Positions 4,812 through 64,000 of a DNA stretch of 64,000 nucleotides are shown here, one piece after another. Position 1 is the stretch's first letter. Each line of letters opens with the position of its first letter. Both the position numbers and the translations under genes were made by a program. The DNA comes from Amycolatopsis jiangsuensis (GTDB lineage: Bacteria; Actinomycetota; Actinomycetes; Mycobacteriales; Pseudonocardiaceae), in NCBI RefSeq assembly GCF_014204865.1, contig NZ_JACHMG010000001.1, forward strand, positions 5,172,501-5,236,500, in the 5' to 3' direction. The notes beneath the pieces were generated by a model. It worked only from the letters and a program-made list of their open reading frames with translations, made no database searches and had not been told where the DNA came from.

Positions 4812-5738
4812 GTGAATCCCCCACCGTCCGACCCCGCGCAGACCGGCCACGAGTTGGGCTGGACGCCGATCGCCGAGGAAGCCGTCCGAGCCGCGAGCGT
4901 GCTGCACCCGAAGGAAGGCGCTCTCCCCCGGCCGACACGTCGCCGGGTGCTCACAGTCGCCAATCAGAAAGGCGGGGTCGGCAAGACGACGAGCACCGTC
5001 AATCTCGCCGCCGCGCTGGCGGTGCACGGGCTGAAGACGCTCGTGATCGACCTCGACCCTCAGGGCAATGCCAGCACCGCACTTGACGTCGACCACCGCT
5101 CCGGGACGCCGTCGATTTACGAAGTGCTGATCGGTGAGGTGTCCCTCGCCGAGGCCGCCGCCGTCAGCGAGCAGTCCCCGAACCTCTTCTGCGTGCCCGC
5201 GACGATCGACCTCGCCGGTGCGGAGATCGAGCTCGTCTCCATGGCGAACCGGGAAACCCGGCTGAAGGAGGCACTGTCGGACGAGTCGCTCGCGCAGATC
5301 GGCGTCGACTACGTCTTCATCGACTGCCCTCCGTCGCTCGGACTTCTCACGGTCAACGCGATGGTGGCGGCCCAGGAAGTCCTGATTCCCATCCAGTGCG
5401 AGTACTACGCACTGGAAGGTCTGGGGCAGCTGCTGAGCAACATCGAACTCGTGCAGCAGCACCTCAACCGGGAACTGAGCGTCTCCACGATTCTGCTCAC
5501 CATGTACGACGGTCGCACGAAGCTGGCCGACCAGGTGACCAACGAGGTGCGCAACCACTTCGGCGAGACGGTGCTGAAGACCGTCATCCCACGCAGCGTG
5601 AAGGTGTCCGAGGCACCCGGCTACGGCCAGACCGTGCTCGCTTACGACCCGGGTTCACGTGGGGCCATGAGCTATCTCGACGCGGCGAAGGAAATCGCCG
5701 AGCGCGGCGCGAATCAGGATAGGAGCAACAGCGCATGA
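4812..5738 (+). CDS. parA: Chromosome partitioning ATPase ParA (Soj)
   Basis: A 308-residue Walker-type ATPase that drives origin segregation together with ParB bound at parS. The deviant Walker A motif KGGVGKTT is at about residues 52-59, followed by [11 protein letters not shown] (Walker A') and FIDCPPSLG (Walker B region). I chose the GTG at 4812 because GGAGGAGG lies 11-18 bases upstream and the longer reading frame from 4752 would begin inside a parS site. The N-terminal 45 residues are an actinobacterial extension. It overlaps parB by 4 bp (ATGA), giving translational coupling. Confidence 0.95.
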
Positions 5739-6745
5739 CTGAGCGCAGAGGAGGGCTGGGGCGCGGTCTCGCGGCCCTGATCCCGACCGGGCCGGCCACC
5801 CCGGCGCCCTCCGGCGGAGAAGGCACCGCGGCCAGCGAACCGGCCGCGCGTGAGGACAAGGGCTGGTTCGCGGCGAACGGCGCGGCTGAAGGGCACGGCG
5901 GCGAGGTCGCCGGCGCGGTGTACCGCGAGATCCCGGTCAGCGCCGTCAAGCCGAATCCGAAGCAGCCGCGTCAGGTCTTCGACGAGGAAGCGCTCGCCGA
6001 GCTCGAACACTCCATCCGGGAGTTCGGGCTCATGCAGCCGATCGTCGTACGCGAACTCGGTGACGGCGAGTACGAGCTCGTCATGGGTGAGCGTCGGCTG
6101 CGTGCGTCCCAGCAGGCGGAGCTGGAGGCGATCCCCGCGATCGTCCGGCAGACCGCTGACGAGTCGATGTTGCGCGACGCACTGCTGGAAAACATCCACC
6201 GGGTTCAGCTGAATCCGCTCGAGGAGGCGGCCGCGTACCAGCAGTTGCTCGACGAGTTCGCGGTGACGCACGAGGAACTGGCCGGTCGGATCGGACGCAG
6301 CCGGCCGGTCATCACCAACACCATCCGGTTGCTGAAACTCCCCCTGCCCGTGCAGCGGCGGGTGGCCGCCGGTGTGCTGTCGGCCGGACATGCCCGGGCG
6401 CTGCTGTCACTCGAGGACCCGGACGGTCAGGAGGAGCTGGCTGCCCGGATCATCGCGGAAGGCATGTCGGTGCGCGCCACCGAGGAAGCCGTCACGCTGA
6501 AGAAGAGCGAGAAGCCGGCGAAGCCGAAACCCGCTCCCCGTAAGCCGATCCAGGCGCCCGGATTGCAGGAACTCGCGAACCGGCTGTCGGATCGCTTCGA
6601 CACCCGCGTGAAAGTGGACCTCGGACGCCGCAAAGGCCGGATCGTCCTCGAGTTCGGCTCGGTCGATGACCTCGAACGCATCGTCGCCCTCATCGACGCG
6701 AACTCGGAGGGAAAATCGGCGGATCAGGCCGACGAAACCGGCTAG
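5735..6745 (+). CDS. parB: Chromosome partitioning protein ParB (Spo0J)
   Basis: A 336-residue CTP-dependent DNA clamp that loads at parS. Visible parts are the ParB/Srx N-terminal domain with [12 protein letters not shown], the arginine-patch motif MGERRLRA used for CTP binding, the [14 protein letters not shown] segment, a helix-turn-helix region ([14 protein letters not shown]), and a C-terminal dimerisation domain after a Lys/Pro-rich linker. It begins [17 protein letters not shown], typical of actinobacterial ParB. The start overlaps the parA stop. Four parS sites lie within 1.9 kb upstream. Confidence 0.96.
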
Positions 6746-6883
6746 GGATCACCCATGGTCTTTTCGTCACGGTGATGATTGCGGATCGACACGGCTGTGC
6801 GCACTCTGCGTGGTCGGTCCGGCTGCCCACCGTCGCGTCGGTCGCCGTGGGTGTGGCGGCCGCGTGGTGTCGTCAGCGGCGTA

Positions 6884-6916
6884 CTCCCCGGGCTCGTCGA
6901 TCAACGAGTCCGGGAG
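6884..6916 (-). terminator. Possible terminator overlapping the end of ddl
   Basis: Imperfect 13-bp inverted repeat (arms 6884-6897 and 6904-6916, one bulge and one mismatch) that includes the ddl stop codon. There is no T-run, as is common in actinobacteria. parB converges from the other side. Confidence 0.45.
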
Positions 6917-7851
6917 ACCGCGCGGGCGACGAGTTCCGAAAACACCGAACCGAGGGATGTGCCGGCGGCTTCGACTGCCATCGGAACTGTGGACGTCTCG
7001 GTGAGGCCCGGCGACAGGTTCACCTCGAGGAAGTGCACAGTGCCGTCCGCGGTGATCACGGCGTCGGTGCGGGAGATGTCGCGCAGCCCGAGCCACCGGT
7101 GTGCCGCGACGGCGAGTTCGCTGACCGCCTTCGCCGCTTCGTCGGAGATCCGGGCCGGGGTGAAGAAGTCGGTGAGGCCGGCGGTGTAGCGAGCCGTGTA
7201 GTCGTAGACGCCGTTCTCCGGCACGATCTCGACCGCGGGCAGGGCTTCGGCCCCGTTCTCCCCCTCGATGACCGTGACGGCCACCTCGACGCCGTCGATG
7301 AACCGCTCCGCGAGCACGGTGTCCCCGTAGGCGAAGCAGCCGACCATCGCCGCGGGGAGTTCCGCGGCTTCGCGCACCACCTGCGTACCCAGCGCCGAAC
7401 CGCCCTGGTCCGGTTTGAGGATCAGCGGCAGCCCGAGCCGATCCACCATCGCGTCGAGCACCGACTGCGCGCCCAGCTCCCGGAAAGTGCTGTGCGGCAA
7501 CACGATCCACTCCGGTGTGGCGAACCCGGCCTGCTGCACGAAAGCCTTCGCGGTCGGCTTGTCCCAAGCCCGACGGCACCCCTGCGAGCTGGTGCCGACG
7601 AACGGCACGTCGAGCATTTCCAGCACGGTCTGCACCGAACCGTTCTCGCCCTCACCGCCGTGCAGTGCGACGATCACCGCGTCCGGACGCTGGGTGCGCA
7701 GCCGTTCCAGCAGGCCGGCGTCGGTGTCCCATTCGTCCACTGTGAGCCCTTCGGCCCGCAGTGCGGCCGACAGCCGCCGTCCGGAGCGGAGCGAGACGTC
7801 CCGCTCGTGGGAAAGTCCGCCGGCGAGCACGGCAACGGTACGGTCGACCAC
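6901..7851 (-). CDS. D-alanine--D-alanine ligase family protein (ATP-grasp)
   Basis: A 316-residue ATP-grasp ligase resembling Ddl, which joins two D-Ala residues for peptidoglycan precursors. The N-terminal domain has VAVLAGGLSHERDVSLRSG. The ATP-grasp part has LILKPDQGGSALG (phosphate-binding loop) and the metal-binding end FLEVNLSPGLTETS. It is shorter than the roughly 370-residue main actinobacterial Ddl and may be a second ligase with a different D-amino or D-hydroxy acid preference; that cannot be settled by eye. It lies 31 bp after the aminotransferase and probably shares its transcript. Confidence 0.88.
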   Translation of the reverse strand: MVDRTVAVLAGGLSHERDVSLRSGRRLSAALRAEGLTVDEWDTDAGLLERLRTQRPDAVIVALHGGEGENGSVQTVLEMLDVPFVGTSSQGCRRAWDKPTAKAFVQQAGFATPEWIVLPHSTFRELGAQSVLDAMVDRLGLPLILKPDQGGSALGTQVVREAAELPAAMVGCFAYGDTVLAERFIDGVEVAVTVIEGENGAEALPAVEIVPENGVYDYTARYTAGLTDFFTPARISDEAAKAVSELAVAAHRWLGLRDISRTDAVITADGTVHFLEVNLSPGLTETSTVPMAVEAAGTSLGSVFSELVARAVSRTR

Positions 7852-7882
7852 CGTGGGAACTCCTTAGTGTTACGGGGGGCGG

Positions 7883-9202
7883 TCAGACCGTGTCCGGAGA
7901 CGGGGTCTCAGGCCCCGGGATGGTGCGTGCACTCACGCTACCGAAGGTGCGGCCGAGGTCCATTTCGGACTCCAGCACCGCCGCGAGCCGGCGCACGCCC
8001 TCGCGGATGCGTTCCGGCGTGGGATAGCAGTAGGACAGCCGCATCTGGCGCGAGCCGAGGCCGTCGGCGTAGAAGCCGGTGCCTGACGCGTATGCCACGC
8101 GCGCGGTCACCGCACGCGGCAGCATTGCTTTGGTGTCAACACCTTCCGGCACCGTCACCCACACGTAGAAGCCACCGTCGGGGTGCGTCCAAGAGCAGCC
8201 GGGGGGCAGGTACTGCCGCAACGCGGACAGCATCGCGTCGCGGCGTTCGCGGTAGTTCTCCCGGAACTTCTTGATCTGACCCTTCCAATCGTGCGTCGCG
8301 AGGTAGCGGGACACGATCATCTGGTTGAACGTGGGCGGGCACAGCGTCGCCGATTCGGCGGCCAGCACGAGCTTCTCCCGCACCGCGTGCGGCGCGAGCA
8401 CCCAGCCGACCCGGAGCCCGGAGGCGAACGTCTTCGAGAACGAACCGAGGTACACGACGTTGTCCGGGTCGAGCGACCGCAGCGCGGGGTAGGTCTGGCC
8501 GTCGAAGCCGAGCAGGCCGTACGGGTTGTCCTCGACGATCAGCACCCCGTGCTCGCGGCAGATCTCCACGATCTCGGCGCGCCGCTCGACGGCCAGCGTG
8601 ACGCCGGCCGGATTGTGGAAATTCGGGATGGTGTAAAGGAACTTGACGCGCTGGCCGGCCTTCTCCGCCTGCCGCAGCGCCTCCCGAAGTCCTTCCGGCA
8701 CCAGCCCGTCGTCGTCCATCGCGACGTGCACCACGTTCGCCTGGTAGGCGGCGAACGATCCGAGGGCGCCGACGTACGACGGGCCTTCGGCGATCACCAC
8801 ATCACCCGGATCGCAGAACAGCCGCGTCACCATGTCCAGGCCCATCTGTGAGCCGACGGTGACCACGACGTCGTCCGGGTGCGCCTTCACGCCCTCGAGA
8901 GCCATGATTTCGCAGATCTGGTCACGCAGCGCAGGCACGCCGTGTGCGGACCCGTACTGCAGTGCGACGAGTCCTTCCTCGGCGATGATCTCGCCGACCT
9001 GCGCGGACAGCGTGTCGAGCGGCAGCGCGGCCAGGTTCGGCATGCCGCCGGCGAGTGAGACGACCTCCGGCCGGCTTGCCACTGCGAAGAGCGCGCGGAT
9101 CTCGGATGCGGTCATCCCGGCGGTGCGGGCTGCGTACCGCTCGAGGTGCGGGTCGAGATTGTGACGGCCGGTCTGCGGCTTGGCGGGGCGGTTCTCGGTC
9201 AT
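7883..9202 (-). CDS. PLP-dependent class I/II aminotransferase (LysN / 2-aminoadipate type)
   Basis: A 439-residue fold-type I aminotransferase. The conserved NPAG motif is at 197-200, the cofactor-contacting VEDNPYG segment at about 223-229, and the Schiff-base Lys is K257 in GSFSKTFASGLRVGW. The closest functional class is 2-aminoadipate/aromatic aminotransferases of the LysN/ARO8 type; the substrate is not determined. The ATG at 9202 was chosen because the longer reading frame to 9583 is only the antisense of the GNAT gene. It is followed closely by the Ddl-type gene, so a role in amino-acid or wall-precursor metabolism is possible. Confidence 0.9.
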   Translation of the reverse strand: MTENRPAKPQTGRHNLDPHLERYAARTAGMTASEIRALFAVASRPEVVSLAGGMPNLAALPLDTLSAQVGEIIAEEGLVALQYGSAHGVPALRDQICEIMALEGVKAHPDDVVVTVGSQMGLDMVTRLFCDPGDVVIAEGPSYVGALGSFAAYQANVVHVAMDDDGLVPEGLREALRQAEKAGQRVKFLYTIPNFHNPAGVTLAVERRAEIVEICREHGVLIVEDNPYGLLGFDGQTYPALRSLDPDNVVYLGSFSKTFASGLRVGWVLAPHAVREKLVLAAESATLCPPTFNQMIVSRYLATHDWKGQIKKFRENYRERRDAMLSALRQYLPPGCSWTHPDGGFYVWVTVPEGVDTKAMLPRAVTARVAYASGTGFYADGLGSRQMRLSYCYPTPERIREGVRRLAAVLESEMDLGRTFGSVSARTIPGPETPSPDTV

Positions 9203-26416: not shown

Positions 26417-27271
26417 GTGGGTGCTGTTCTGACCGGGGTTGCCGGGGCGCTGGCCACCTTCCGCGCCGGGGACACCGCGGGGGCCGCCGAGCTCGCCGGA
26501 CAGTCCGGAACACGGCTCGGCGCCGAGCTGGCGACCTACCTCGGCTCCGCAGGCTCGGGTCCGGTGTACGACCAGCCGGCCGGGTTCACCGCGTTCATCC
26601 GCGGCGGTGGCAACGTGCCGCTCTACGAGCGGTTGAGCGACGAACTGGCCGCGCGGTACGACCGACTGCGCCCGGACGCGCTGCTGGACCTCGGGTGTGG
26701 TGACGGACTGGCGGTCGTCCCCGCGTTGTCACGCGCGCGGTTCCGGCCGGCGCGGATCGACCTCGTCGAACCGTCCGAAGCACTGCTCGACCAGGCCGAA
26801 GTACCTGGGGCGCAACGCTTTGCGACGACCGCGCAGGGCTTCCTCGCGACGCATGGTTCCACGTGGAACCTTGCGCAGTCGACGTTCGCCCTGCAGTCGA
26901 TCCGGCCGGACGATCGCGCGGACGTACTGCGCTCACTGTGCCCGCGGACCGAGCGGCTGCTGCTGGCCGAATTCGACGTGCCGGCGTACGACGAGGGATC
27001 TCCCGCGCACCTGCGTTCGCTGGCCGAGCGGTACGAACGCGGCGTCGCCGAGTACGGCGACCAGGCTTCCCTTGTCGCCCAAGGCTTCCTGCTGCCCGTG
27101 CTGCTCGGCCTGGTGGCCGGTGCGGACCGGACGAACTGGGAACACCCGGCGGCGGACTGGGCCGCGCAGCTGGACACCGCGGGGTTCACCGACGTGACCG
27201 TGACCCCGCTCGTGGACTACTGGTGGTCGCCCGCGGTCCTGATCACCGCCCGCGGTTCACAGCCGGGCTAG
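26417..27271 (+). CDS. Class I SAM-dependent methyltransferase
   Basis: A 284-residue methyltransferase. The SAM-binding motif LLDLGCGDGLAVVPAL is at about residues 93-108. The acidic end of strand 2 (IDLVEPSEALLDQA) follows. The N-terminal ~80 residues are a helical extension. The substrate is unknown and there is no neighbouring pathway to suggest one. A GTG at 26417 follows GAGGA. The last 15 bp overlap the convergent TNT-type gene, and a perfect parS-like palindrome lies inside the coding sequence at 26855-26870. Confidence 0.85.
   Translation: MGAVLTGVAGALATFRAGDTAGAAELAGQSGTRLGAELATYLGSAGSGPVYDQPAGFTAFIRGGGNVPLYERLSDELAARYDRLRPDALLDLGCGDGLAVVPALSRARFRPARIDLVEPSEALLDQAEVPGAQRFATTAQGFLATHGSTWNLAQSTFALQSIRPDDRADVLRSLCPRTERLLLAEFDVPAYDEGSPAHLRSLAERYERGVAEYGDQASLVAQGFLLPVLLGLVAGADRTNWEHPAADWAAQLDTAGFTDVTVTPLVDYWWSPAVLITARGSQPG
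26855..26870. promoter_or_regulatory. parS-like perfect palindrome inside a coding sequence
   Basis: GGTTCCACGTGGAACC is a perfect 16-bp palindrome. Its 14-bp core differs from the parS consensus GTTTCACGTGAAAC by one symmetric change in each half. Site 4 upstream of parA carries the same change in one half, so ParB binding is plausible. Confidence 0.45.
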
Positions 27272-29158
27272 CGCCCCCGCCTCCACGTGCTGTGCGATCG
27301 GCCGCGGCAGCAGGTACGCGGTGGCGCCGCCGGGCTGCGGACCCCACGGCGCGGTCACCCCGGTGAGCACCCGGATCGTGCGTTGCACGCGGTATTCGTG
27401 CCGCTCGCGTTCCCGGTCCGCGGTCAGCGAGGTCTCGACGAACCGCGTGCCCGCCGCGTGCACGAGGTTCCCCTTGTCCCCGCCGAACCGGACGACGGTG
27501 GTTCCCGCGGGCAGCGCGACCAGGCGCTTGCTGCGGTAGAACGACAGCGGCGGCTCGCCGCGCAGCGGCAGGATCGGCCAGTCGGCGGGCTGGTCGGATT
27601 CGGCTCCGTCGGCGGCGGTCGGCAGCATCAGCAGCGTGCCGAGCAGGTACCGCGCCGCCTCGGCGAGCGTGCCGAACGCGATCGGCTCCACCGACGGCGG
27701 ACGGGAGACCTCCCAGCGGTTGTCGGCCCGGCGCAGCGTCCACACGCCGTCGGCGGGCACCTCGTTCGCGCCGATCCGGTACGCCGACGCCGGAACGCCG
27801 TACTCGGTGAGCCGCTGCTGCAGCACCGTCAACGTCTCGGCCGCACGCAGCGGCCGGCTCGGATCACCCTCGCGCAGCGCACGGGCGAGCGGGCTGGTGT
27901 CCGGCAGCTCGGCCTCCGACCGCGGTGGCCGAGGCCGTCCGAGCACGTCCGCCTCGGCACTGGCCCGCACCAGTTCGCGGACCAGCGGCGGGCGGAACCC
28001 GGCCGCGCGGATGTGCTCGACCAGCTCCGGCTCCGGCGGAACGCCGTACTTGCGCAGGTAGTGCGGCACCGCGGCGGGCCAGATCCAGGTGCCGTCGGTG
28101 TGGAAGGCCTGCGGCACGTCCGGCGGTGCGCCGGGCGGGGCGAACAGGTCCGGCTGCGGGGCCGGCCGGTGCAGCACGACCGGCGAGCGGAACAGGTAGT
28201 CGAGTACGCCGCGCACCTGGTCCGGCGGCACCGGCGGCCGGTTGACGACCGGCCGCTCCCCCTCGTTGTGCCCGTCGACCACGCGAGCCTGCCGGAAGAC
28301 GAGGTCGATCGGCAGCCCGGCCCTGGTCGCGAGCCACTCCGGCAGCTGCTTCGGCGTACGGGGGAACCGGGCCAGCTCGATCTGGTAGGACTGCGGCGCC
28401 GGACGTCCGCCGTCGTTCGGCGGCAGCCGCCAGTCCGGCTCCCGGTCGGCGTCGAAGTCGAAGTCGAACTGCGATTCGTTGTCGAGGGTGAAGGTGCCCT
28501 GGAACCAGGTGCCGGTCTCCGGCTGGTACATCGCCGCGCGCAGTCGCGCGAACAGCGAGCTGAGCCGCGGCGGGGCGGCCAGCGCCACCGACACCGGGCC
28601 GTTCTCGTCGCCGATCGCGCGCACCTCGAGCTCGGAGTAGTCGCCGACCTGTCGGAACTGCGCGGCGACCTTGGTCCAGCCACCGGGCACCGTGCGCAGG
28701 CCGCGGCCGATCGCACGCAGCAGCTTGGCGTGGTCGCCGCCGGCCGTCTCCGGCTTCGGTTCCGCGTAGTCGTGGCGGGTCTGCCACAGCCCGGTCAGCT
28801 GCTTCGTCGGCACCGTCACCGAGAACTCGGTGAGCCCGAGCTGGGCGGCCCGCACCGGATCGTGCCGGGTCCAGCGCAGCGTCAGCTCGGTCCCGGCGCC
28901 CGGCGCGACCTCGAACAGCTCGTCCTCGTACTCGCCATGACTGCGCAGGTCGAACGGCGCCGGCACCTCGTTCGCGAGCACTACGCGGGCCGGGCGGCCC
29001 TCGTGCTCGCGGTCGAAGCCCTCGGGTGCTTCCTCGCCCGGCAGTACGGTGAGCAGCAGCGTCCCGTCGGTGGTCGAACGCTGGGCCGCGAACGTGCGGT
29101 CGTCCAGCGTGACGTACAGGCCGTCAGGGCGTTCGCTTGCCTCAACCCGGTAACGCAC
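27257..29158 (-). CDS. TNT-domain protein with YezG-like region (active-type NAD glycohydrolase fold)
   Basis: A 633-residue protein, last gene of the four-gene operon. Region 1 (1-135) is unknown. Region 2 (about 145-270) resembles YezG/DUF600 immunity proteins (IGRGLRTVPGGWTKVAAQF, then a FDFDFDADREPDW strand). Region 3 (about 350-400) has TDGTWIWPAAVPHYLRKYG, seen in other TNT proteins. The C-terminal ~100 residues match the tuberculosis necrotizing toxin fold: VVRFGGDKGNL, then APWGPQPGGATAYLLP with the conserved Gln at 608. TNT enzymes hydrolyse NAD+. No signal peptide or WXG motif is visible. A GTG start follows GGGGAGGAAG. Confidence 0.72.
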   Translation of the reverse strand: MRYRVEASERPDGLYVTLDDRTFAAQRSTTDGTLLLTVLPGEEAPEGFDREHEGRPARVVLANEVPAPFDLRSHGEYEDELFEVAPGAGTELTLRWTRHDPVRAAQLGLTEFSVTVPTKQLTGLWQTRHDYAEPKPETAGGDHAKLLRAIGRGLRTVPGGWTKVAAQFRQVGDYSELEVRAIGDENGPVSVALAAPPRLSSLFARLRAAMYQPETGTWFQGTFTLDNESQFDFDFDADREPDWRLPPNDGGRPAPQSYQIELARFPRTPKQLPEWLATRAGLPIDLVFRQARVVDGHNEGERPVVNRPPVPPDQVRGVLDYLFRSPVVLHRPAPQPDLFAPPGAPPDVPQAFHTDGTWIWPAAVPHYLRKYGVPPEPELVEHIRAAGFRPPLVRELVRASAEADVLGRPRPPRSEAELPDTSPLARALREGDPSRPLRAAETLTVLQQRLTEYGVPASAYRIGANEVPADGVWTLRRADNRWEVSRPPSVEPIAFGTLAEAARYLLGTLLMLPTAADGAESDQPADWPILPLRGEPPLSFYRSKRLVALPAGTTVVRFGGDKGNLVHAAGTRFVETSLTADRERERHEYRVQRTIRVLTGVTAPWGPQPGGATAYLLPRPIAQHVEAGALARL

Positions 29159-29242
29159 TCCGCTTCCTCCCCGAAATCCCCCGCATGAGCGGCACCGAAC
29201 TTAGCCGAGACCGCCGTTTCCTGCCCGGTCGGGTGATCTCGG

Positions 29243-31480
29243 TCAGTGCCGGGGGTAACGCTGCGACCACGTCGCACCGAGCTGCTGCAGTGCCGAGCGG
29301 CGGTCGAAGTGCCACAGCGCGTCGGTGGCCAGCTGTTCGATCAGGTGGCGCAGCTCCAGCTGGTCGATCCACGGGGCCGGCAGGCCCGCGATGCCGACCC
29401 TGGCGCCGAGCAGCGCCCCGGTGAGCGCCCCGGTGAGCGCGCTGCGTCCGGAGTGGTTCACCCCGCGCAGCAACGCCTGTTCCGGATAATTCTCGAACCC
29501 GGACAGCGCGGCGAACGCGCGGCCGAGCACGGACAGGGTGGTGTGCCCGTCCCCGATCAGTTCCGGCATCCGCAGGTCCGGCAGCCCGTGTTCGCCGAAG
29601 AACGGCACCGCCTCCTCCACCATCGCGCGTACCGCGTCCCACTCCGGACCGGACTGCGGATGCTCATCGAGGACCTCGCGGGACAGGTTCCACACCGGGT
29701 AACTGAACGAATCCTTGGTCAGCGCGTGCTCGAACAGCCAGGCCAGGTAGCCGGCCGCGGCCAGATCGTCCTCCTGCCGATGCGTCACGGCGACCAGATC
29801 CCGTACCACCTGGCCGATCCCGCCGCTGAACCCGGTGCCGGGCCCGGCCGCGGTGAGCACCGCGGGCAGCGCCCCGACCAGCGCGGCAGGCCCGCTCATC
29901 GGACTCGCCTGCGGCGCCCGCGTGACCAGCGCGTGGTAGGCGTTGAGCTCGGCGTCGTCGGCGCCGCGCCGGACGTGCAGCTCGGGCACCTTCACCAGCC
30001 AGCCGTCGGTGTTCTCCAGCGGCGCGCCCTGGGTGTGCAGCCAGCGCAGCAGCGCCCCGCGCACGACGCCGGGGAAGAGCTTCTCGACCTCGCGTGACTC
30101 CGGCTGTTCCCGGTGCGGGCTGCGGATCACCGCCTCGGTGTAGAACAGCAGCCGCTGGGTCAGCGAGCCGATGCGGCCGGGCTGGTCGAACGCGACCGGT
30201 GGTCCGGTGACGCCGTCCGGGCCGAACCGCGCGACGATCTCGTCGAGCCGGAGCCGGTCCACCGCCGTGCCCAGCGCTTCGCCGAGCGCGAACCCGGCGT
30301 ACGCCCCGGCCACGCGCTGCCAGCCGTAGCGGAAGTTCTCCAGCTCCGGCAGCGGGTACTTGCCGAAGGTGTCCAGCCGCGGCACGACGCGCCCGTCGTT
30401 GTCCCAGGACGGGGCCAGGCCGTTGGCGCTCAGGTCGTTCGGCTTGCTGCGTGGTGGCTCGGGATGCTCGAGACGCCGGAGCCAGGACTGGCCGATGACC
30501 GTCTTGCGGCATTCCTCGGCGGTGAGCTCGAAACCGTGCCGCCGGGCTCGTTCCGCGCCGGTCGTGGGCAGTTCCACCGGTGCGGTCAGTCCCATCCGCT
30601 CCGCGGTGTCCGCGGCGAGGGTTTCCAGTTCCCGCTCCGCCTCCGGGCAGCGGCCGTGCCGGTCGACCCGCGGTTCGCCGCGGGGGAAGCGCTGGGCGAC
30701 GTCCGCGAGTTCGGCACCGGTGACGTCCTCGAAGGTGGCCGGACCGCCGTTGATCACCAGGTTCGGCGGATGCTCGAACTCGGCGAGCGTGGCCAGGTCC
30801 ACGTGCCACCAGGCGTGTTCGCGCGCGGGCAGGTGCCGCGTCGAGCTGAACACCCGCAGCTCGTTGCGTTCCTCGGAGAAGTAGAACCGGTCGGTCGAAC
30901 CGGTCGTGACGTCCAGCGGCACGAACACCTCGCAGCGCAGCAGCCCGATCAGCAGCTGCTCGCGGGAAAGCCAGCCGACGCTCGCGAACGCCAGCAGGGT
31001 TTCCAGGGTGTTCTCCGGCTTCGGGTAGCCGCGGCGGATCGGCCCCGCCCGGTACTGCGGGTTCTCCCGTTCGTCACCGGTCTGCTGGCCGTCGTTGTCC
31101 ACCTTCACCCAGCCGGCGACCGCGGGCAGCGGCACGCCCAGCTCGCCGAACCCGGCCTTCACGTACTCCGGGTCCACGACCTCGCGCCAGCTCTCCTGCC
31201 CGGGGTAGGCCACCGGGGTGCTGAGCCCGCCCGGGTTCGGATGTGCCTGGCGCAGCTCACCGTCGGGTTCGCGGACGAGCACCGCGGGCGGCGGGAAGAG
31301 TTCCTTGTCCGGCCGCCCGTCGTCGAGGAAGGCGACGGTGTTGTAGGGGATCGACCAGCCTTCCGGCACCCGCAGCACGCGGGCGTGGTCGACGCGCAGG
31401 CCACCGGGGCCGGCGACCGTGGGGCCGTGCACGGCCTGCAACCACTTGCCGACCTTGTCCATCGCTTCCGCCGCTTCCAC
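29243..31480 (-). CDS. Imm35-like + SseB-like + degenerate ADP-ribosylglycohydrolase fusion
   Basis: A 745-residue fusion. Residues 8-75 resemble the Imm35/YrhB immunity fold (RVPEGWSIPYNTVAFL). Residues 155-265 resemble the SseB N-terminal domain (ELRVFSSTRHLPARE, PNLVINGG). Residues 388-735 follow the ADP-ribosylglycohydrolase (DraG/ARH) helical fold (VAGAYAGFALGEALGTAVDR, ALLRGVNHSGRSALTG). The two metal-binding Asp motifs are missing: the TDDT position reads GSLTQ (438-442) and the GDxDT position reads SGRSALT (677-683). It is therefore probably not a hydrolase. The GTG start directly abuts the TAG of the upstream gene. Confidence 0.7.
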   Translation of the reverse strand: MEAAEAMDKVGKWLQAVHGPTVAGPGGLRVDHARVLRVPEGWSIPYNTVAFLDDGRPDKELFPPPAVLVREPDGELRQAHPNPGGLSTPVAYPGQESWREVVDPEYVKAGFGELGVPLPAVAGWVKVDNDGQQTGDERENPQYRAGPIRRGYPKPENTLETLLAFASVGWLSREQLLIGLLRCEVFVPLDVTTGSTDRFYFSEERNELRVFSSTRHLPAREHAWWHVDLATLAEFEHPPNLVINGGPATFEDVTGAELADVAQRFPRGEPRVDRHGRCPEAERELETLAADTAERMGLTAPVELPTTGAERARRHGFELTAEECRKTVIGQSWLRRLEHPEPPRSKPNDLSANGLAPSWDNDGRVVPRLDTFGKYPLPELENFRYGWQRVAGAYAGFALGEALGTAVDRLRLDEIVARFGPDGVTGPPVAFDQPGRIGSLTQRLLFYTEAVIRSPHREQPESREVEKLFPGVVRGALLRWLHTQGAPLENTDGWLVKVPELHVRRGADDAELNAYHALVTRAPQASPMSGPAALVGALPAVLTAAGPGTGFSGGIGQVVRDLVAVTHRQEDDLAAAGYLAWLFEHALTKDSFSYPVWNLSREVLDEHPQSGPEWDAVRAMVEEAVPFFGEHGLPDLRMPELIGDGHTTLSVLGRAFAALSGFENYPEQALLRGVNHSGRSALTGALTGALLGARVGIAGLPAPWIDQLELRHLIEQLATDALWHFDRRSALQQLGATWSQRYPRH

Positions 31481-32863
31481 CTACTCGATCCTCTCCAGGC
31501 TTCCGTCGGACTCGTGCTCCGCGATCGGCTTGGGCAGTACGTAGGCCACCGCGCCACCCGGCAGGTTCGCCCAGGGCACCGTGACGCCGGTGATGACGTG
31601 CAGTGACCGCCGGAGCCGGAAAGTGCTGGTCACTCGCTCTCGTTCGAGTGGCAGTGACGTCGTGGCGAACCGTACCCCGCGCAGGTGAACCAGGTTCCCG
31701 GGTTCCTCCCCGAATCGCAGGACGACGGTACCTGCCGCCAACCGGGTGGGTCTCTTGTTCCGCAGCAGCGTGAGGGGAGGGTCACCCGGCACGGGCTGGA
31801 CGGGCCAGTCGGCGAGTTCCTTCGCCGTCTCCAGCGGGGTTTCCCGCCCGCCGGTGGCCCGGGCCGGGTGCATCAGCAGCGCACCGAGCAGCTGCTGCGC
31901 GGCCGTGGTCAGGTCCGGGAAGTGCCGGCCGGTGCCGTCCGGCGACGTCACGGCCCAGCCGGACGCGTCCTCCTCGAGACTCCAGACTCCGGCCACGCGG
32001 TCGCCGAGCCGGTAGGCCTGCGGCCAGACGCCGAACGAGCCGAGCCGGTGTTCGAGCAGCGCCAGCAGCTGGTCGTCGTCGAGTACCGGATCGGGGTCGG
32101 TCTCCAGTTCGGCGGCCACGTCGGCACCGGTCGGCTCCAGGTCGGCCGGTTCGGGCCGGGGACGCGGACGGCCGGCGAGGTCGGCCTCGGCGGTCCGGCG
32201 CAGCAGGTGCGCCACGTGTGGCGGCTGGAAGCCCAGGTCGCGGATGTGCGCGACGAGCTCGGGCTCGGGTGGGATGCCGTGCCGGCGCAGCTGTTCGGTC
32301 ACCTCGACCGGCCAGATCCAGGTGCCGTCGGTCCGGTGCCTGTCGCCGGCCTCGGCCTCGCGCTCCAGGTACTGCAGCACGAGCGGGAGTTCGCCGGTGG
32401 CCAGTGCCGGGCGCTGCTCCCCGTCGGCGGCGGGGTGGGCGTGGCGGAACTCGAGGCCGAGCGGAAGACCGGCGCGCAGCCGCCACCAGTCCGGGATGTA
32501 CTCGTCGTCGCGAGGGAACGTGGTCAGCTCGTCGCGGTAGGTGTCCGGCGCGGGCGGGGTCGTCCAGGGCGGATCGACGTCGGAGAAGTAGTCGAAGTCG
32601 AACGAGCCGTCCGGCGCGAGCACGAACCGGGCCTGCAGCCAGGTGCCGAGGCCCTGGCGGTACATGCCGGCGCGCAACGCGGTGAACCGGCGGGTGATCT
32701 CGAGGTCCGCCTCGGTGTTGCCCGGCCGGACCTCGAGGTGATCGCCGACCTGGGCGAAGCCGATCCCGGCCGGCGCGGCGGGCTCGGGCCGCCGGTCGCG
32801 CACGAGCCGGCCGATCTCGACGAGCAGAGCCTGCTGCTCGCTCTCGGTGAGCGTCGGTTCCAC
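31481..32863 (-). CDS. Smaller TNT-like paralogue with altered active site
   Basis: A 460-residue paralogue of the 633-residue TNT protein, lacking its first domain. It has a YezG-like part (about residues 5-120), the shared TDGTWIWPVEVTEQLRRHG segment near 175, and a C-terminal TNT-like fold (VVLRFGEEPGNLVHLRG, VPWANLPGGAVAYVLP). The conserved Gln of the QPGG motif is Leu at 434, and the ERERHEY segment of the paralogue is replaced by ERERVTSTF. It is therefore likely an inactive relative, perhaps a regulator or immunity partner. It begins 14 bp after the YbaB-like gene and abuts the next gene. Confidence 0.68.
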   Translation of the reverse strand: MEPTLTESEQQALLVEIGRLVRDRRPEPAAPAGIGFAQVGDHLEVRPGNTEADLEITRRFTALRAGMYRQGLGTWLQARFVLAPDGSFDFDYFSDVDPPWTTPPAPDTYRDELTTFPRDDEYIPDWWRLRAGLPLGLEFRHAHPAADGEQRPALATGELPLVLQYLEREAEAGDRHRTDGTWIWPVEVTEQLRRHGIPPEPELVAHIRDLGFQPPHVAHLLRRTAEADLAGRPRPRPEPADLEPTGADVAAELETDPDPVLDDDQLLALLEHRLGSFGVWPQAYRLGDRVAGVWSLEEDASGWAVTSPDGTGRHFPDLTTAAQQLLGALLMHPARATGGRETPLETAKELADWPVQPVPGDPPLTLLRNKRPTRLAAGTVVLRFGEEPGNLVHLRGVRFATTSLPLERERVTSTFRLRRSLHVITGVTVPWANLPGGAVAYVLPKPIAEHESDGSLERIE

Positions 32864-32877
32864 GGGATTCGGTGGGT

Positions 32878-33249
32878 TCAGGAGCCGCGGCGGCGGTTCT
32901 GCGGCAGGGCTCCCCGCGGCCGCACCCGGCGTGGCGTCGGCCGGGGGGCGGGCATCGGGTGCGCCGGGTGCGTCAGGGCCTCGGGCCGCTCCGGCGATTC
33001 GGACCGCTCCGGGACTTCGGCCAGCTGCTGTACCAGCGCCTGCACGGTGAACGCGAGCTGCGCCGGTGTGGTGCGCTCGAAGGTGTCCGGGGCGAACTCG
33101 AGCCGGCCGAGCGCGCCGGTGCCGCCCGAGGTCGCGCGGACCAGACCGTCCGGCGAGGTCAGGACGGCAGGTGCGACGTCAAAACGGCCGCGATCGTCGC
33201 CGGCAGTAGTCACGATGACCCCCGGTGTCGGTTCACTGAGTTCACTCAC
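32878..33249 (-). CDS. YbaB/EbfC-like small protein
   Basis: A 123-residue protein, first in the operon. Residues 10-75 fit the YbaB/EbfC fold: SPDGLVRATSGGTGALGRL, then EFAPDTFERTTPAQLAFTVQ, the usual glycine turn and amphipathic helix. Such proteins often sit next to WXG100/ESX substrates and toxins in actinobacteria. The C-terminal 40 residues are Pro/Arg-rich. A -10-like hexamer lies about 10 bp before the GTG, so the mRNA may be leaderless. Confidence 0.6.
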   Translation of the reverse strand: MSELSEPTPGVIVTTAGDDRGRFDVAPAVLTSPDGLVRATSGGTGALGRLEFAPDTFERTTPAQLAFTVQALVQQLAEVPERSESPERPEALTHPAHPMPAPRPTPRRVRPRGALPQNRRRGS

Positions 33250-60632: not shown

Positions 60633-61451
60633 TCAGCTCAGTGCGCTCTGCGCTGCCCGGAGCCGTTCCGAGATCGCCTGCCGGGATGCGGGGGTGTAGA
60701 CGATCAGGGATTCGCGGCCCGGCCGCTCCTCCATCAGCCATCGGCCTTCGCTGATGTCGACGAAGTTGACCGGCTTGGGAATCCGCCGGCGGGTGCCGTT
60801 GGCGGGCCGGGCCGCCACGTACAGCGCCCCGGCACCGGTGCGTTCCGCCTTCATGATCCGCTGGATCTCCTTCAGCGGGGACGCCTGCTGCTGGTTGCGG
60901 CTGGGCCCGGACTGCATGATCGAGCCACGCGGTTCGTCGGCGTTCGCCACCCGTCCGCTCTCGTACTCGGCCCGGCTGGTGACGAGTGTCTGCCCGGAGG
61001 GGGTCCGTGCGGCCGGGACGATGTCGAGGAACGTTTCGAGCAGCCGTTCCGGCCGTTGCCGGGTGACCGCGACGGTCTGCTGGCCATTGACGCGGACGAG
61101 CCCGAAGCCGCCGCCGTTGCCGCTGCCCACCAGCGCCGAGAAGTTGGCCGGGCTGCCGTCTTCGAACTGGCCGTTGAACCAGCCGTAGTACTCGAGGTGC
61201 GGGTGGGAGATGGATTCGATCAGCGCGAGCAGATCGCGGTCCATCCCCCGGGGTCCCATCAGCCCGGCCTGCATCAGCCCCGCGTTGACCGACTCGTCGA
61301 GCTTGCGCTCGTCCTCCGGCACGTAGAACGCCGCGGTCTCCCCGATGACCTGGTGCGGTTCGGCACCGCGTCGCCGGATGAGGTTGCACAGGGTGTAGGC
61401 CGTGAACGTCACCGGCCGGTCGAGAGTGATCACTTGTCGGGCCTCATTCAC
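60633..61451 (-). CDS. espG: ESX secretion-associated protein EspG
   Basis: A 272-residue EspG-family protein, the cytosolic chaperone that binds PPE-type substrates of type VII secretion. Features are FTAYTLCNLIRRRGAEPHQV near the N terminus, ESISHPHLEYYGWF around residue 95, and a C-terminal FVDISEGRWLMEERPGRES. The start overlaps the PPE-like gene by 8 bp, showing that substrate and chaperone are made together. Confidence 0.85.
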   Translation of the reverse strand: MNEARQVITLDRPVTFTAYTLCNLIRRRGAEPHQVIGETAAFYVPEDERKLDESVNAGLMQAGLMGPRGMDRDLLALIESISHPHLEYYGWFNGQFEDGSPANFSALVGSGNGGGFGLVRVNGQQTVAVTRQRPERLLETFLDIVPAARTPSGQTLVTSRAEYESGRVANADEPRGSIMQSGPSRNQQQASPLKEIQRIMKAERTGAGALYVAARPANGTRRRIPKPVNFVDISEGRWLMEERPGRESLIVYTPASRQAISERLRAAQSALS

Positions 61452-62799
61452 CGATCACGGGCGGCACGGTCAGCTGGTCGGAGCCGAAGAGTTCGTTGTT
61501 GTCCTCTTCCACCAGGTACTTCGTCTGGTGCTCCTGGTCCTCCTCGCCCTTCTTGCCGCCGCCACGGGCACCACCCATGCCGCCCATCCCGGACGAACCG
61601 GCCTTGCCCGCCGCACCCGCGCCGCCCATGCCGGCCCCACGCATCCCGCTGCCGGCGCCACCGGCGCCTTCACCCGCGGCCGCGCCGGAGCCCATGCCCC
61701 CGGTGCCGAACCCGCCCGGCCCGAAGCCCGCCGCACCGAACCCGCCGGCGCCGGAACCCGATCCGCCGCCACCGGGACCGAACCCACCGGCGCCGCCGCC
61801 ACCAGGCCCGAACCCGCCGGACCCGCCGGAACCCCCAGGCCCGAACGAGCCGGGATTCACCGAAGGCGGCACGTAACCCGACGCCGAGGTGTTGTCGTTG
61901 GGCGGGGTGTAGCTGGGAACGTCAGTCTTGGGCGGGGTGTAGTTCGGCGTGTTCGTCTTCGGAGTGTCGAACTTCGGCGTGTTCGCGTTGACCTTCGGCA
62001 TGTTCGTCTTGGGCGGGGTGAAGCCACCCGCGCCGCCCCCGCCGAAGCCGCCGCCGCCATTACCCACACCACCGGGCCCGACGCCTCCGACGTTGGGGTT
62101 GCTCCCACCGTCGGAGATGTTGTTGCCCTGCCAGACGTTGTACTGCGGCATCCCGCCCGCGTTCTGGTTACTGGAACCGTAGTACGCGGTGTAGGCCTGG
62201 ACGTTGGTCTGGCTGTCCTGGTTGTACTTGTTGATCTCGTCGTCTTTGTCGCTGAAGGGCTGGTGGTCGTACCACTCCATCTCCGGCGGCTCGTCCGGAA
62301 GTTGCTGGACCTTGCCGTGCACGTCGTGGAACGCGTCCATCTGGTTGGTGATGAAGCTGCGGCTCTTGCCCAGGTTGTTGGCCGAGTCGTCGTGCCACAT
62401 CTTCAGCGCGCCCGCACCGCCGGTCGCCGCGGACGCGCTGTTGCCCTGCCAGGCTTCGCCCATCTTGTTGTTCAGGGCTTCGATCGAGTTGGCTCGATCG
62501 CTGTGCGTCCTGCCGAGCGTGTCGGACTCGGACTGGCCATGCTCAAGCGAGGTGGTGTTGCCGGCGCTGATCTTCTTGTAGATCTCGGTCGCGGTGATCG
62601 ACCCGCCGCCGACGTTGGCCTGCGCGTTCTCGGCGGTCGGACCGCCGCTGAATATGTGGACTGCCGCACCCACCAGGCCGCCGACCGCAGCGCCGACGAC
62701 CGCGCCCTCGGGCCCGGCGATGGCACCGTAGGTGGCCCCGATCGCCGCACCTTTGGCGGTGTCCTTCAGGGCGCTGCCTGTGTCGTCCCCATTCCCCAT
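61444..62799 (-). CDS. PPE-like WXG-type ESX substrate with Gly/Pro-rich tail
   Basis: A 451-residue protein. The N-terminal 50 residues contain a Gly/Ala-rich hydrophobic segment (GAAIGATYGAIAGPEGAVVG). Residues about 70-185 are helical with a central WQGNSA (WXG-type turn), as in PPE-like substrates. The rest is Pro/Thr-rich (TPPKTNMPK repeats), then a long Gly-rich tail (FGPGGGGAGGFGPGG) ending in an acidic VEEDNNELFGSDQL segment. EspG is encoded immediately downstream, overlapping 8 bp. Confidence 0.8.
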   Translation of the reverse strand: MGNGDDTGSALKDTAKGAAIGATYGAIAGPEGAVVGAAVGGLVGAAVHIFSGGPTAENAQANVGGGSITATEIYKKISAGNTTSLEHGQSESDTLGRTHSDRANSIEALNNKMGEAWQGNSASAATGGAGALKMWHDDSANNLGKSRSFITNQMDAFHDVHGKVQQLPDEPPEMEWYDHQPFSDKDDEINKYNQDSQTNVQAYTAYYGSSNQNAGGMPQYNVWQGNNISDGGSNPNVGGVGPGGVGNGGGGFGGGGAGGFTPPKTNMPKVNANTPKFDTPKTNTPNYTPPKTDVPSYTPPNDNTSASGYVPPSVNPGSFGPGGSGGSGGFGPGGGGAGGFGPGGGGSGSGAGGFGAAGFGPGGFGTGGMGSGAAAGEGAGGAGSGMRGAGMGGAGAAGKAGSSGMGGMGGARGGGKKGEEDQEHQTKYLVEEDNNELFGSDQLTVPPVIGE

Positions 62800-62841
62800 G
62801 ATGAGACTCTTCCTTCCAGGCCTGCTAGGGCCGCGCAGCAG

Positions 62842-63444
62842 TCACTGCGCTGTCTTGAGATGGTTGATCATGGCCTCGCCGACCTTGCCCGCAGCACCGC
62901 ACGGGTCGTCGTGGTTCTTTCCGGTCGAAATCGAGGTGCTGATCGAAACTCCGAGCTGGTCAGTGACGCCGACCACCGCGTTGCACACACCTTCTGAGCG
63001 ATCGTCGCCGAGCGTGGATCCGTACACCGCGGGGTAGCTTCCGATCGTGGTCGGCTCGAAATAGGCGTAGCCGGCCTTGTTGGAGTAGATGTCGCCGAGC
63101 CCGTTCTTGTTCGGGGTGACTGGCGTGATCCCGATCACGTTCCCGGCGAACTGGGTGGACTGCCAGTCGCAGCCGGGCGGTGATTGACCGCTCGGGCTCC
63201 CCGGTGACTTCAAGCCGAGATCCGCTGCTTCGTCGGCTCCGAGAGCGGTGCACGGATCGGCGATCAGCTTCTGGGTCGGCAGCGGCGACGGTACTTTCGG
63301 GGCGCCGGAACTGGTGTTCGGTGCGCTGCTGGAGTTCGTGGCAGCAGGTGTATCGCCCGTTCCTTCGGTCTTGCCGGTGCACGCGGTGAGCAGACCAAGA
63401 ACGGCGAGTGTTCCGACGGCGAGTCGCGCGATGTGGTGAGACAT
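62842..63444 (-). CDS. DUF3558 family lipoprotein
   Basis: A 200-residue lipoprotein. The signal peptide ends in the lipobox LGLLTACTG, with the lipidated Cys near residue 22. The DUF3558 core follows (DPCTALGADEAADLGL, PPGCDWQSTQFAG), with several Cys able to form disulfides. Genes of this family regularly accompany PPE/EspG cassettes in Pseudonocardiales. It starts 7 bp after the upstream small gene. Confidence 0.85.
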   Translation of the reverse strand: MSHHIARLAVGTLAVLGLLTACTGKTEGTGDTPAATNSSSAPNTSSGAPKVPSPLPTQKLIADPCTALGADEAADLGLKSPGSPSGQSPPGCDWQSTQFAGNVIGITPVTPNKNGLGDIYSNKAGYAYFEPTTIGSYPAVYGSTLGDDRSEGVCNAVVGVTDQLGVSISTSISTGKNHDDPCGAAGKVGEAMINHLKTAQ

Positions 63445-63451
63445 GTGGTGT

Positions 63452-63859
63452 TCAGAACCCGCCCTTGTCTTGCTGAGCCAGCCGGTCGCGGTTTTCCTGC
63501 TCGTTGACGGTGATCTTGTTCTTGGCCGCGGTGAGTGCAGTGATGAAGTTCTGGGTGTACTTGACCATCTTGTTGTGCTCGTCCAGCAGGCTCTTCCCCG
63601 ACGGATTGGCACCCTGGTTGATGAAGGTGTGGCTGGCGACTTCATCGGCGGGCGGTTTCACGTCGGCGATGTTCTGCGCGTGCACACGGTCCTTGGTGAG
63701 GTCGGTGAGCAGGTCCTCCCACTGCTTGATGACCGCGTCGACCTCGTCCTCGCTGAACTTGTAGCCGCCGGAGCTCCCGTAGCCACCGACCATGATCGGC
63801 GGGACTTCGGGTACGACGGTGTCCTTCAGCGGGTCAGGTGCAGGTTGTGGTTCGGCCAT
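63452..63859 (-). CDS. Small helical PE-like/ESX-associated protein
   Basis: A 135-residue, mostly helical protein with a Pro/Gly-rich start (PPIMVGGYGSSGGYKFS) and amphipathic helices containing DAVIKQWEDLLTDLTKDR and NFITALTAAKNKITVNEQEN. No clear WXG motif. By position, before the DUF3558 and PPE-like genes, it is probably the PE-like partner of the PPE-like protein. The ATG at 63859 was chosen because a G-rich ribosome-binding region lies upstream. The last 140 bp of the window beyond it show nothing recognisable. Confidence 0.6.
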   Translation of the reverse strand: MAEPQPAPDPLKDTVVPEVPPIMVGGYGSSGGYKFSEDEVDAVIKQWEDLLTDLTKDRVHAQNIADVKPPADEVASHTFINQGANPSGKSLLDEHNKMVKYTQNFITALTAAKNKITVNEQENRDRLAQQDKGGF

Positions 63860-64000
63860 CTCAGTGGACCCCCTAGTAGCCACGGCTCGCGCCTCAACGT
63901 CGAGATCAGCAGCTTGGATGGTAACGCACGGCGGTTGGTTCCCGCTCGGAATCGGGCACTTTGCGGACTGCTGGACGGCACCCTTGCGCGCGACTCTCGT

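Follow-up and report, generated by a model that had tools for sequence, protein, structure and literature searches.

Predicted TNT and ADP-ribosylglycohydrolase pseudoenzymes in a four-gene Amycolatopsis locus that may represent a toxin-free immunity set

Background

Polymorphic toxin/immunity loci provide the closest described counterparts of the element analysed here, a block of four minus-strand genes in Amycolatopsis jiangsuensis. The block lies in a stretch of 64,000 nucleotides (NZ_JACHMG010000001.1, positions 5,172,501 to 5,236,500 of the forward strand; this whole stretch is hereafter the window) and encodes, in order, a YbaB/EbfC-like protein, a TNT protein (TNT-b), a fusion of Imm35, SseB-like and ADP-ribosylglycohydrolase (ARH) parts (the pseudo-ARH), and a longer TNT protein (TNT-a) (Table 1). 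Judged by their sequences, TNT-a, TNT-b and the ARH fusion are predicted pseudoenzymes, and we lean slightly towards reading the block as the immunity and accessory part of a polymorphic-toxin locus of the type VII secretion system (T7SS), with the toxin absent and the pseudoenzymes acting by binding.

According to the sections of PMC3482391 that treat these families, Imm35 is associated with the papain-like toxin Tox-PL1 (a table adds Ntox40) and is in some instances fused to a papain-like toxin or an ARH, and active ARHs serve as immunity proteins against ADP-ribosyltransferases. The present locus type shares with the loci of those sections Imm35, the Imm35-ARH fusion, the link to a papain-like toxin and an ARH beside ADP-ribosyltransferase toxins, but in the window the ARH is dead by prediction, an SseB-like part is included in the fusion and the toxin is absent. 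The ARH fold is also common to known ADP-ribosyltransferase/ARH pairs (PDB 6dre/6drh and 8za7; PMC11699363). As its abstract presents it, in the system of Bxa with Bsi and BAH an ADP-ribosyltransferase is countered by two immunity proteins, of which one blocks and the other acts enzymatically (PMC11699363), and the dead and intact ARHs of toxin-bearing relatives of the window suggest a comparable blocking/enzymatic pair. However, that abstract is silent on Bsi being an ARH, and the window has the dead ARH alone.

The CpnT/TNT-IFT system of mycobacteria and the fungal TNT-domain NADases likewise feature a C-terminal TNT fold, whereas the window proteins lack the catalytic set and have an EsaG-like domain in place of the ESX-substrate N-terminus. 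The EsaD/EsaG system offers both an EsaG/YezG-like fold and, in the account summarized in PMC9484751, orphan esaG arrays, in which immunity genes are retained in strains without the toxin; the EsaG-like domain of the window, in contrast, sits in a 633-residue multi-domain protein. In Serratia, an orphan immunity protein is reported to protect against a TNT-like Rhs NADase (PMC10539506), but this is a type VI system, and the part of that source drawn on here does not describe the immunity protein as a dead TNT. Our search of the literature, covering titles and abstract openings and largely excluding subscription papers, recovered no publication on this locus. A defence system was considered and rejected, as none of the PADLOC profiles gave a match to any of the four (E up to 0.1).

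Predicted loss of catalysis in the TNT and ARH folds

TNT-a and TNT-b both match the TNT family profile PF14021 well above its cut-off of 27 bits (83.8 and 66 bits, respectively), and TNT-b is related to residues 142-633 of TNT-a (46% identity). An earlier note, made from the sequence of the window alone, had rightly recognized both TNT domains and had contrasted an intact one in TNT-a, keeping Gln608, with an altered one in TNT-b. This contrast does not survive alignment to the Aspergillus NADase, in which the catalytic Gln194 aligns to A614 of TNT-a rather than to Gln608. The latter was accordingly rejected as the catalytic residue; position 608 is Gln in 8 of the 75 readable TNT-a orthologues. 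The catalytic position is Ala in both window proteins (A614 and A440), and the QRxL Arg, its partner Asp and the active-site aromatic residue are lost in both as well. Arg780 is stated to be essential in TNT, and Aspergillus NADase mutants at R129, F137 and Q194 are inactive.

These substitutions recur across a set of 77 distinct loci, drawn from the best 80 matches among 267 confirmed stretches, so that close relatives are over-represented. Residues could be counted in 75 of 77 TNT-a frames and 45 of 46 TNT-b frames, with loci L103 and L110 (TNT-a) and L041 (TNT-b) dropped; the complete catalytic set is found in none of either. The QRxL Arg position (R780/R148) is T in 68 and A in 7 TNT-a proteins and T in all 45 TNT-b proteins, and the partner Asp persists in 4/75 and 0/45. 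At the aromatic position (F137 of the Aspergillus enzyme, AfNADase) TNT-a has L (73) or V (2) and TNT-b L (44) or V (1); at the Gln position (Q194 of AfNADase) TNT-a has A (60), G (11), S (2) or T (2) and TNT-b A (39) or S (6). By comparison, the DRxG Arg (R757/R129) is universally retained, as R557 in TNT-a (75/75) and R383 in TNT-b (45/45), as are the two cradle glycines checked in TNT-a (75/75). Among 20 control TNT stretches from genomes of the window's own family, D, R, F, R and Q are all retained in three (L124, L127 and L139); inspection by eye of the other 17 showed the Gln replaced by Ala or Gly, mostly with loss of the aromatic residue, in ten and by Arg in seven, with Arg148 retained in all but one (L138). 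TNT-a and TNT-b group with the Ala/Gly class and, in addition, lack Arg148. The own genome has four TNT genes, none of which, by eye, encodes a complete catalytic set.

Two further TNT proteins were observed in genome G000. At L113 (G000:C1:4094000-4111000; 8367-9185, minus strand) a stand-alone 273-residue TNT protein has Arg at the catalytic Gln position, as do most of its homologues by eye, and is followed by a gene for an 88-residue product resembling residues 432-516 of TNT-a. At L112 (G000:C1:4240000-4256000; 4897-9009, plus strand) a frame of at most 1,371 residues combines a region resembling TNT-a 132-436 with a long Pro/Gly/acidic linker and a TNT domain in which D, R and R are retained but Gln is Ala; similar matches occur in many Amycolatopsis genomes.

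In the 745-residue fusion, the three-part architecture proposed by the earlier note was recovered, with one region matching the T7SS-associated model NF033532 below the cut-off (Table 1). Intact ARH relatives have TDDT and GDxDT, which we take to be the metal-ligand motifs of the family; the window has GSLT and SGRSAL instead (in GRIGSLTQ from 30178 down and NHSGRSAL from 29458 down). The metal motifs are missing in 39 of 39 fusion frames, and TDD is present in none of the 54 rows of alignment A2. Taken together, the lost TNT catalytic residues and ARH metal motifs, alike in the orthologues, indicate that all three proteins are pseudoenzymes as far as residues can predict it.

The domains accompanying the dead TNT folds are probably of antitoxin type. 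Residues 142-246 of TNT-a have the EsaG/YezG immunity fold, and its residues 432-516 match a stand-alone 88-residue product from the same genome in a profile search (38.3 bits, E 2e-10, among 3,848 open reading frames (ORFs)); a search for solved structures gave no convincing relative of this segment, and a PDB sequence search with TNT-b returned chance-level kinase matches only. PF27768 is listed for some homologues of the 633-residue protein and is absent from the matches obtained with the library used here.

Table 1. Genes and domains of the four-gene block (positions in the window; aa, amino acids; pLDDT, predicted local distance difference test)
Feature	Position	Strand	Remarks
YbaB/EbfC-like protein, 123 aa	33249-32878	minus	short form
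TNT-b, 460 aa	32863-31481	minus	PF14021 66 bits; TNT-fold domain at C-terminal end
TNT-fold domain of TNT-b, residues 375-459	31487..31741	minus	L382, R383, L391, T402, A440 at NADase positions D, R, F/Y, R, Q
Imm35 / SseB-like / pseudo-ARH fusion, 745 aa	31480-29243	minus	profile matches; AlphaFold2 pLDDT 91
Imm35 (YrhB) domain, residues 4-100	31181..31471	minus	PF15567 74.5 bits, cut-off 27.5
NF033532-like region ('type VII secretion system-associated protein'), residues 96-250	30731..31195	minus	43.3 bits, under cut-off 85
ARH fold, residues 392-702	29375..30307	minus	ADP_ribosyl_GH (PF03747) 103.1 bits, over cut-off
TNT-a, 633 aa	29158-27257	minus	core gene linked to pcnA; PF14021; AlphaFold2 pLDDT 88
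EsaG/YezG-like domain of TNT-a, residues 142-246	28421..28735	minus
TNT-a domain, residues 432-516	27611..27865	minus	homologous to stand-alone 88-aa product beside another TNT gene, same genome
TNT-fold domain of TNT-a, residues 549-632	27263..27514	minus	V556, R557, L565, T576, A614 at NADase positions D, R, F/Y, R, Q

Phyletic distribution and the giant toxin

TNT-a is convergent to the tRNA-repair gene pcnA, with or without an intervening methyltransferase gene, in 75 of the 77 loci, which span several genera; in the others (L060 and L110) the contig ends ahead of the expected pcnA place or homology stops at residue 418, respectively. Within the 10-kb flank taken per locus, a limit that could hide toxins, the gene content is TNT-a only (no TNT-b, ARH or toxin detected) in 31 loci, one of them the short contig L110; TNT-b with TNT-a in 6; pseudo-ARH, TNT-b and TNT-a in 7; a toxin in 28; and mixed in 5. 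All 28 toxin loci have TNT-b and pseudo-ARH, and 25 an intact-type ARH; at L062 and L111 the gene in the TNT-b slot is labelled TNT-a-like. A lack of conserved linkage, which the earlier note named as refuting its reading, was not observed; linkage is strong within Amycolatopsis, and among 36 genomes (the window's own and 35 of the same genus) TNT-a is present in 36 and TNT-b in 34. A pcnA-linked TNT was also considered as ancestral across the order and found weakly supported, being seen in one genome outside the window's family (G087, family f8), with other TNT matches elsewhere or on other contigs. In G087 the match lies in an 839-residue frame about 4.9 kb beyond the pcnA end, a position presumably resembling that of cpnT in mycobacteria.

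The toxin that goes with such loci is another protein, a giant WXG100-type polypeptide of up to ~2,800 residues that is not found in the window. It occupies the slot in 24 of the 36 Amycolatopsis genomes, where a papain-fold toxin adjoins TNT-b (positions compared by eye); from the names, we read the Pfam 'Papain fold toxin 1' as Tox-PL1. In L144, L145 and L146, and similarly in L148, the order is YbaB (198-203 residues), a WXG100-like protein and the toxin (2,382-2,504 residues). The two toxins scanned whole (L144 and L146) contain WXG100_2, ADP-ribosyltransferase-type, two papain-fold and RelA/SpoT matches; an incomplete frame (L064) gave a papain-fold match only. The 2,382-residue protein of L144 (11440-18585) is itself a candidate multi-warhead T7SS toxin. 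L111 (322-2592) has five tandem paralogues of a ~150-residue gene located behind the toxin elsewhere in other species; the one scanned had no Pfam match.

The four-gene block has no WXG100-type toxin gene, and no match to PF15644, a family found in 26 of the 36 Amycolatopsis genomes, was detected in the own genome; a search with the N-terminal 420 residues of the toxin, run without a positive control, also found none. The own genome yields 13 WXG100_2 matches (8 over the cut-off), a single Imm35 (that of the window) and two further ARH genes elsewhere. A pcnA tree (FastTree, 76 rows) requires that the toxin label change 2 times, consistent with either two gains or an old presence with losses, and loss of the toxin in the window clade was therefore not accepted as fact. 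An intact ARH without toxin at L040 counts for loss. L061 counts as toxin-free in this tree, but the locus breaks off within a frame that is RelA-like by eye and had no Pfam match, so that a toxin may be present.

The window YbaB-like protein scores 12.9 bits against the Pfam profile (cut-off 25.5), so the label given in the earlier note is weak for this copy, whereas a 199-residue relative in L144 scores 42.4 bits. Alignment with the 199-229-residue forms of three toxin-bearing genomes shows that the window form lacks their coiled-coil-like segment and their acidic tail. A short YbaB with TNT-a is also found in toxin-free Prauserella and Qaidamihabitans.

Functional interpretation

As sister species carry a giant toxin at the same spot, the block has the appearance of left-behind or stand-alone immunity-type proteins, and the precedents of blocking/enzymatic and orphan immunity imply that a dead ARH and dead TNTs could protect by binding. 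We infer that the proteins would act in this manner rather than by hydrolysing NAD or ADP-ribose. The papain-fold toxin would be capped by Imm35; the dead ARH would mask the ADP-ribosyltransferase, or the target it has modified, with no hydrolysis taking place; in TNT-a and TNT-b the EsaG-like and 88-residue-type domains would bind domains of the toxin; and the dead TNT might offer a docking or decoy surface. Retained in the absence of the toxin, these proteins may shield their host from toxins of the same family that sister species deliver. A broader notion is tentative, namely that antitoxin folds (EsaG-like, the 88-residue TNT-neighbour domain, Imm35) fused to dead TNT or ARH domains could form an immunity class of decoys or caps against NAD- or ADP-ribose-based toxins, which would work in operons next to an intact ARH where species carry the toxin and by itself in the window clade.

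Several observations count against an immunity set. An intact ARH, the obvious antidote, is lacking in the window while the dead one is kept. The short YbaB of toxin-free Prauserella and Qaidamihabitans suggests that this lineage may have been without the toxin from the start, and the 31 loci with TNT-a but no toxin, TNT-b or ARH point to an older or independent role of TNT-a. Comparison of the three window proteins with a set of the giant toxins gave one chance-level match (E 0.81), so that no cognate domain is identified for TNT-a or TNT-b. Furthermore, no TNT domain can be read in the TNT-a frames of L103 and L110, and L041 has a short, atypical TNT-b frame, implying that some copies are not intact. 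All three are possibly broken copies, for which sequencing or contig faults may be the cause.

A possible though less probable explanation sets TNT-a apart from immunity, as a core pseudoenzyme found in part of the Pseudonocardiaceae that serves the cell or assists the T7SS (as adaptor, chaperone or nucleotide sensor); TNT-b and pseudo-ARH would have been recruited to it and the toxin module later inserted between YbaB and TNT-b in some lineages. The position of TNT-a by pcnA in several genera, its frequent occurrence without detected partners and the short YbaB and TNT-a pair of the two toxin-free genera all agree with this, and the invariant DRxG Arg and cradle glycines make some ligand binding thinkable. 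However, the EsaG-type fold and the 88-residue-type domain point to a toxin/immunity ancestry, and Imm35 and ARH are known immunity families.

Selection bears on the quite unlikely alternative that the block is a decaying remnant without function, for which the toxin and intact ARH not found in the window, the short YbaB and the irregular frames just mentioned might speak. Nei-Gojobori ratios of nonsynonymous to synonymous substitution (dN/dS), computed between the window and genome G001 unless stated otherwise, are 0.25 for TNT-a, 0.18 for pseudo-ARH, 0.35 for TNT-b and 0.34 for YbaB; the comparison genes pcnA, leuS and the adjacent methyltransferase give 0.10, 0.20 and 0.375. For the window against L035 and four other pairs of the toxin-free clade, the values are 0.02-0.20 (pseudo-ARH) and 0.06-0.28 (TNT-a); for TNT-b the L035/L041 pair, with the short and diverged L041 frame, reached 0.61. 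TNT-a, TNT-b and pseudo-ARH thus mostly appear to be under purifying selection, and the frames are open in the window and most of the toxin-free clade, both of which argue against decay.

Least probable of all is the reading of the 633-residue protein as an active TNT NADase toxin with its neighbours as regulators or immunity proteins, given that the essential Arg780 is replaced by T576, the salt-bridge Asp by V556 and two of the R129, F137 and Q194 positions are substituted, and that a gene so often without partners fits poorly to a toxin with obligate immunity partners. The self-contained NAD-acting toxin with a dead regulator envisaged by the earlier note falls with it, because neither TNT domain in the window keeps the catalytic set; its broader view of a toxin/immunity-type locus with dead enzyme copies, a T7SS flavour and an EsaG/YezG-type part is borne out.

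Genomic surroundings

The four ORFs (33249-27257) were confirmed as closely packed, with intergenic gaps of 14, 0 and 84 bp. Downstream lie a methyltransferase-like gene and pcnA, both convergent to the block, and upstream is the divergent yqgE. Small minus-strand genes near the window end (60636-63883) are WXG100-like by eye; Pfam and NCBIfam scans of them gave no T7SS family match.

Conclusions

Public records name relatives of the 633-residue protein 'TNT domain-containing' or 'glycohydrolase toxin TNT-related' and those of the 745-residue protein 'ADP-ribosylglycohydrolase family', implying a chemistry for which the residues give no support. The toxin-bearing relatives present a multi-warhead T7SS toxin with paired dead and intact ARHs. 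If action by binding is true, dead TNT and ARH folds would constitute a class of T7SS immunity proteins that can be tested for in Actinobacteria.
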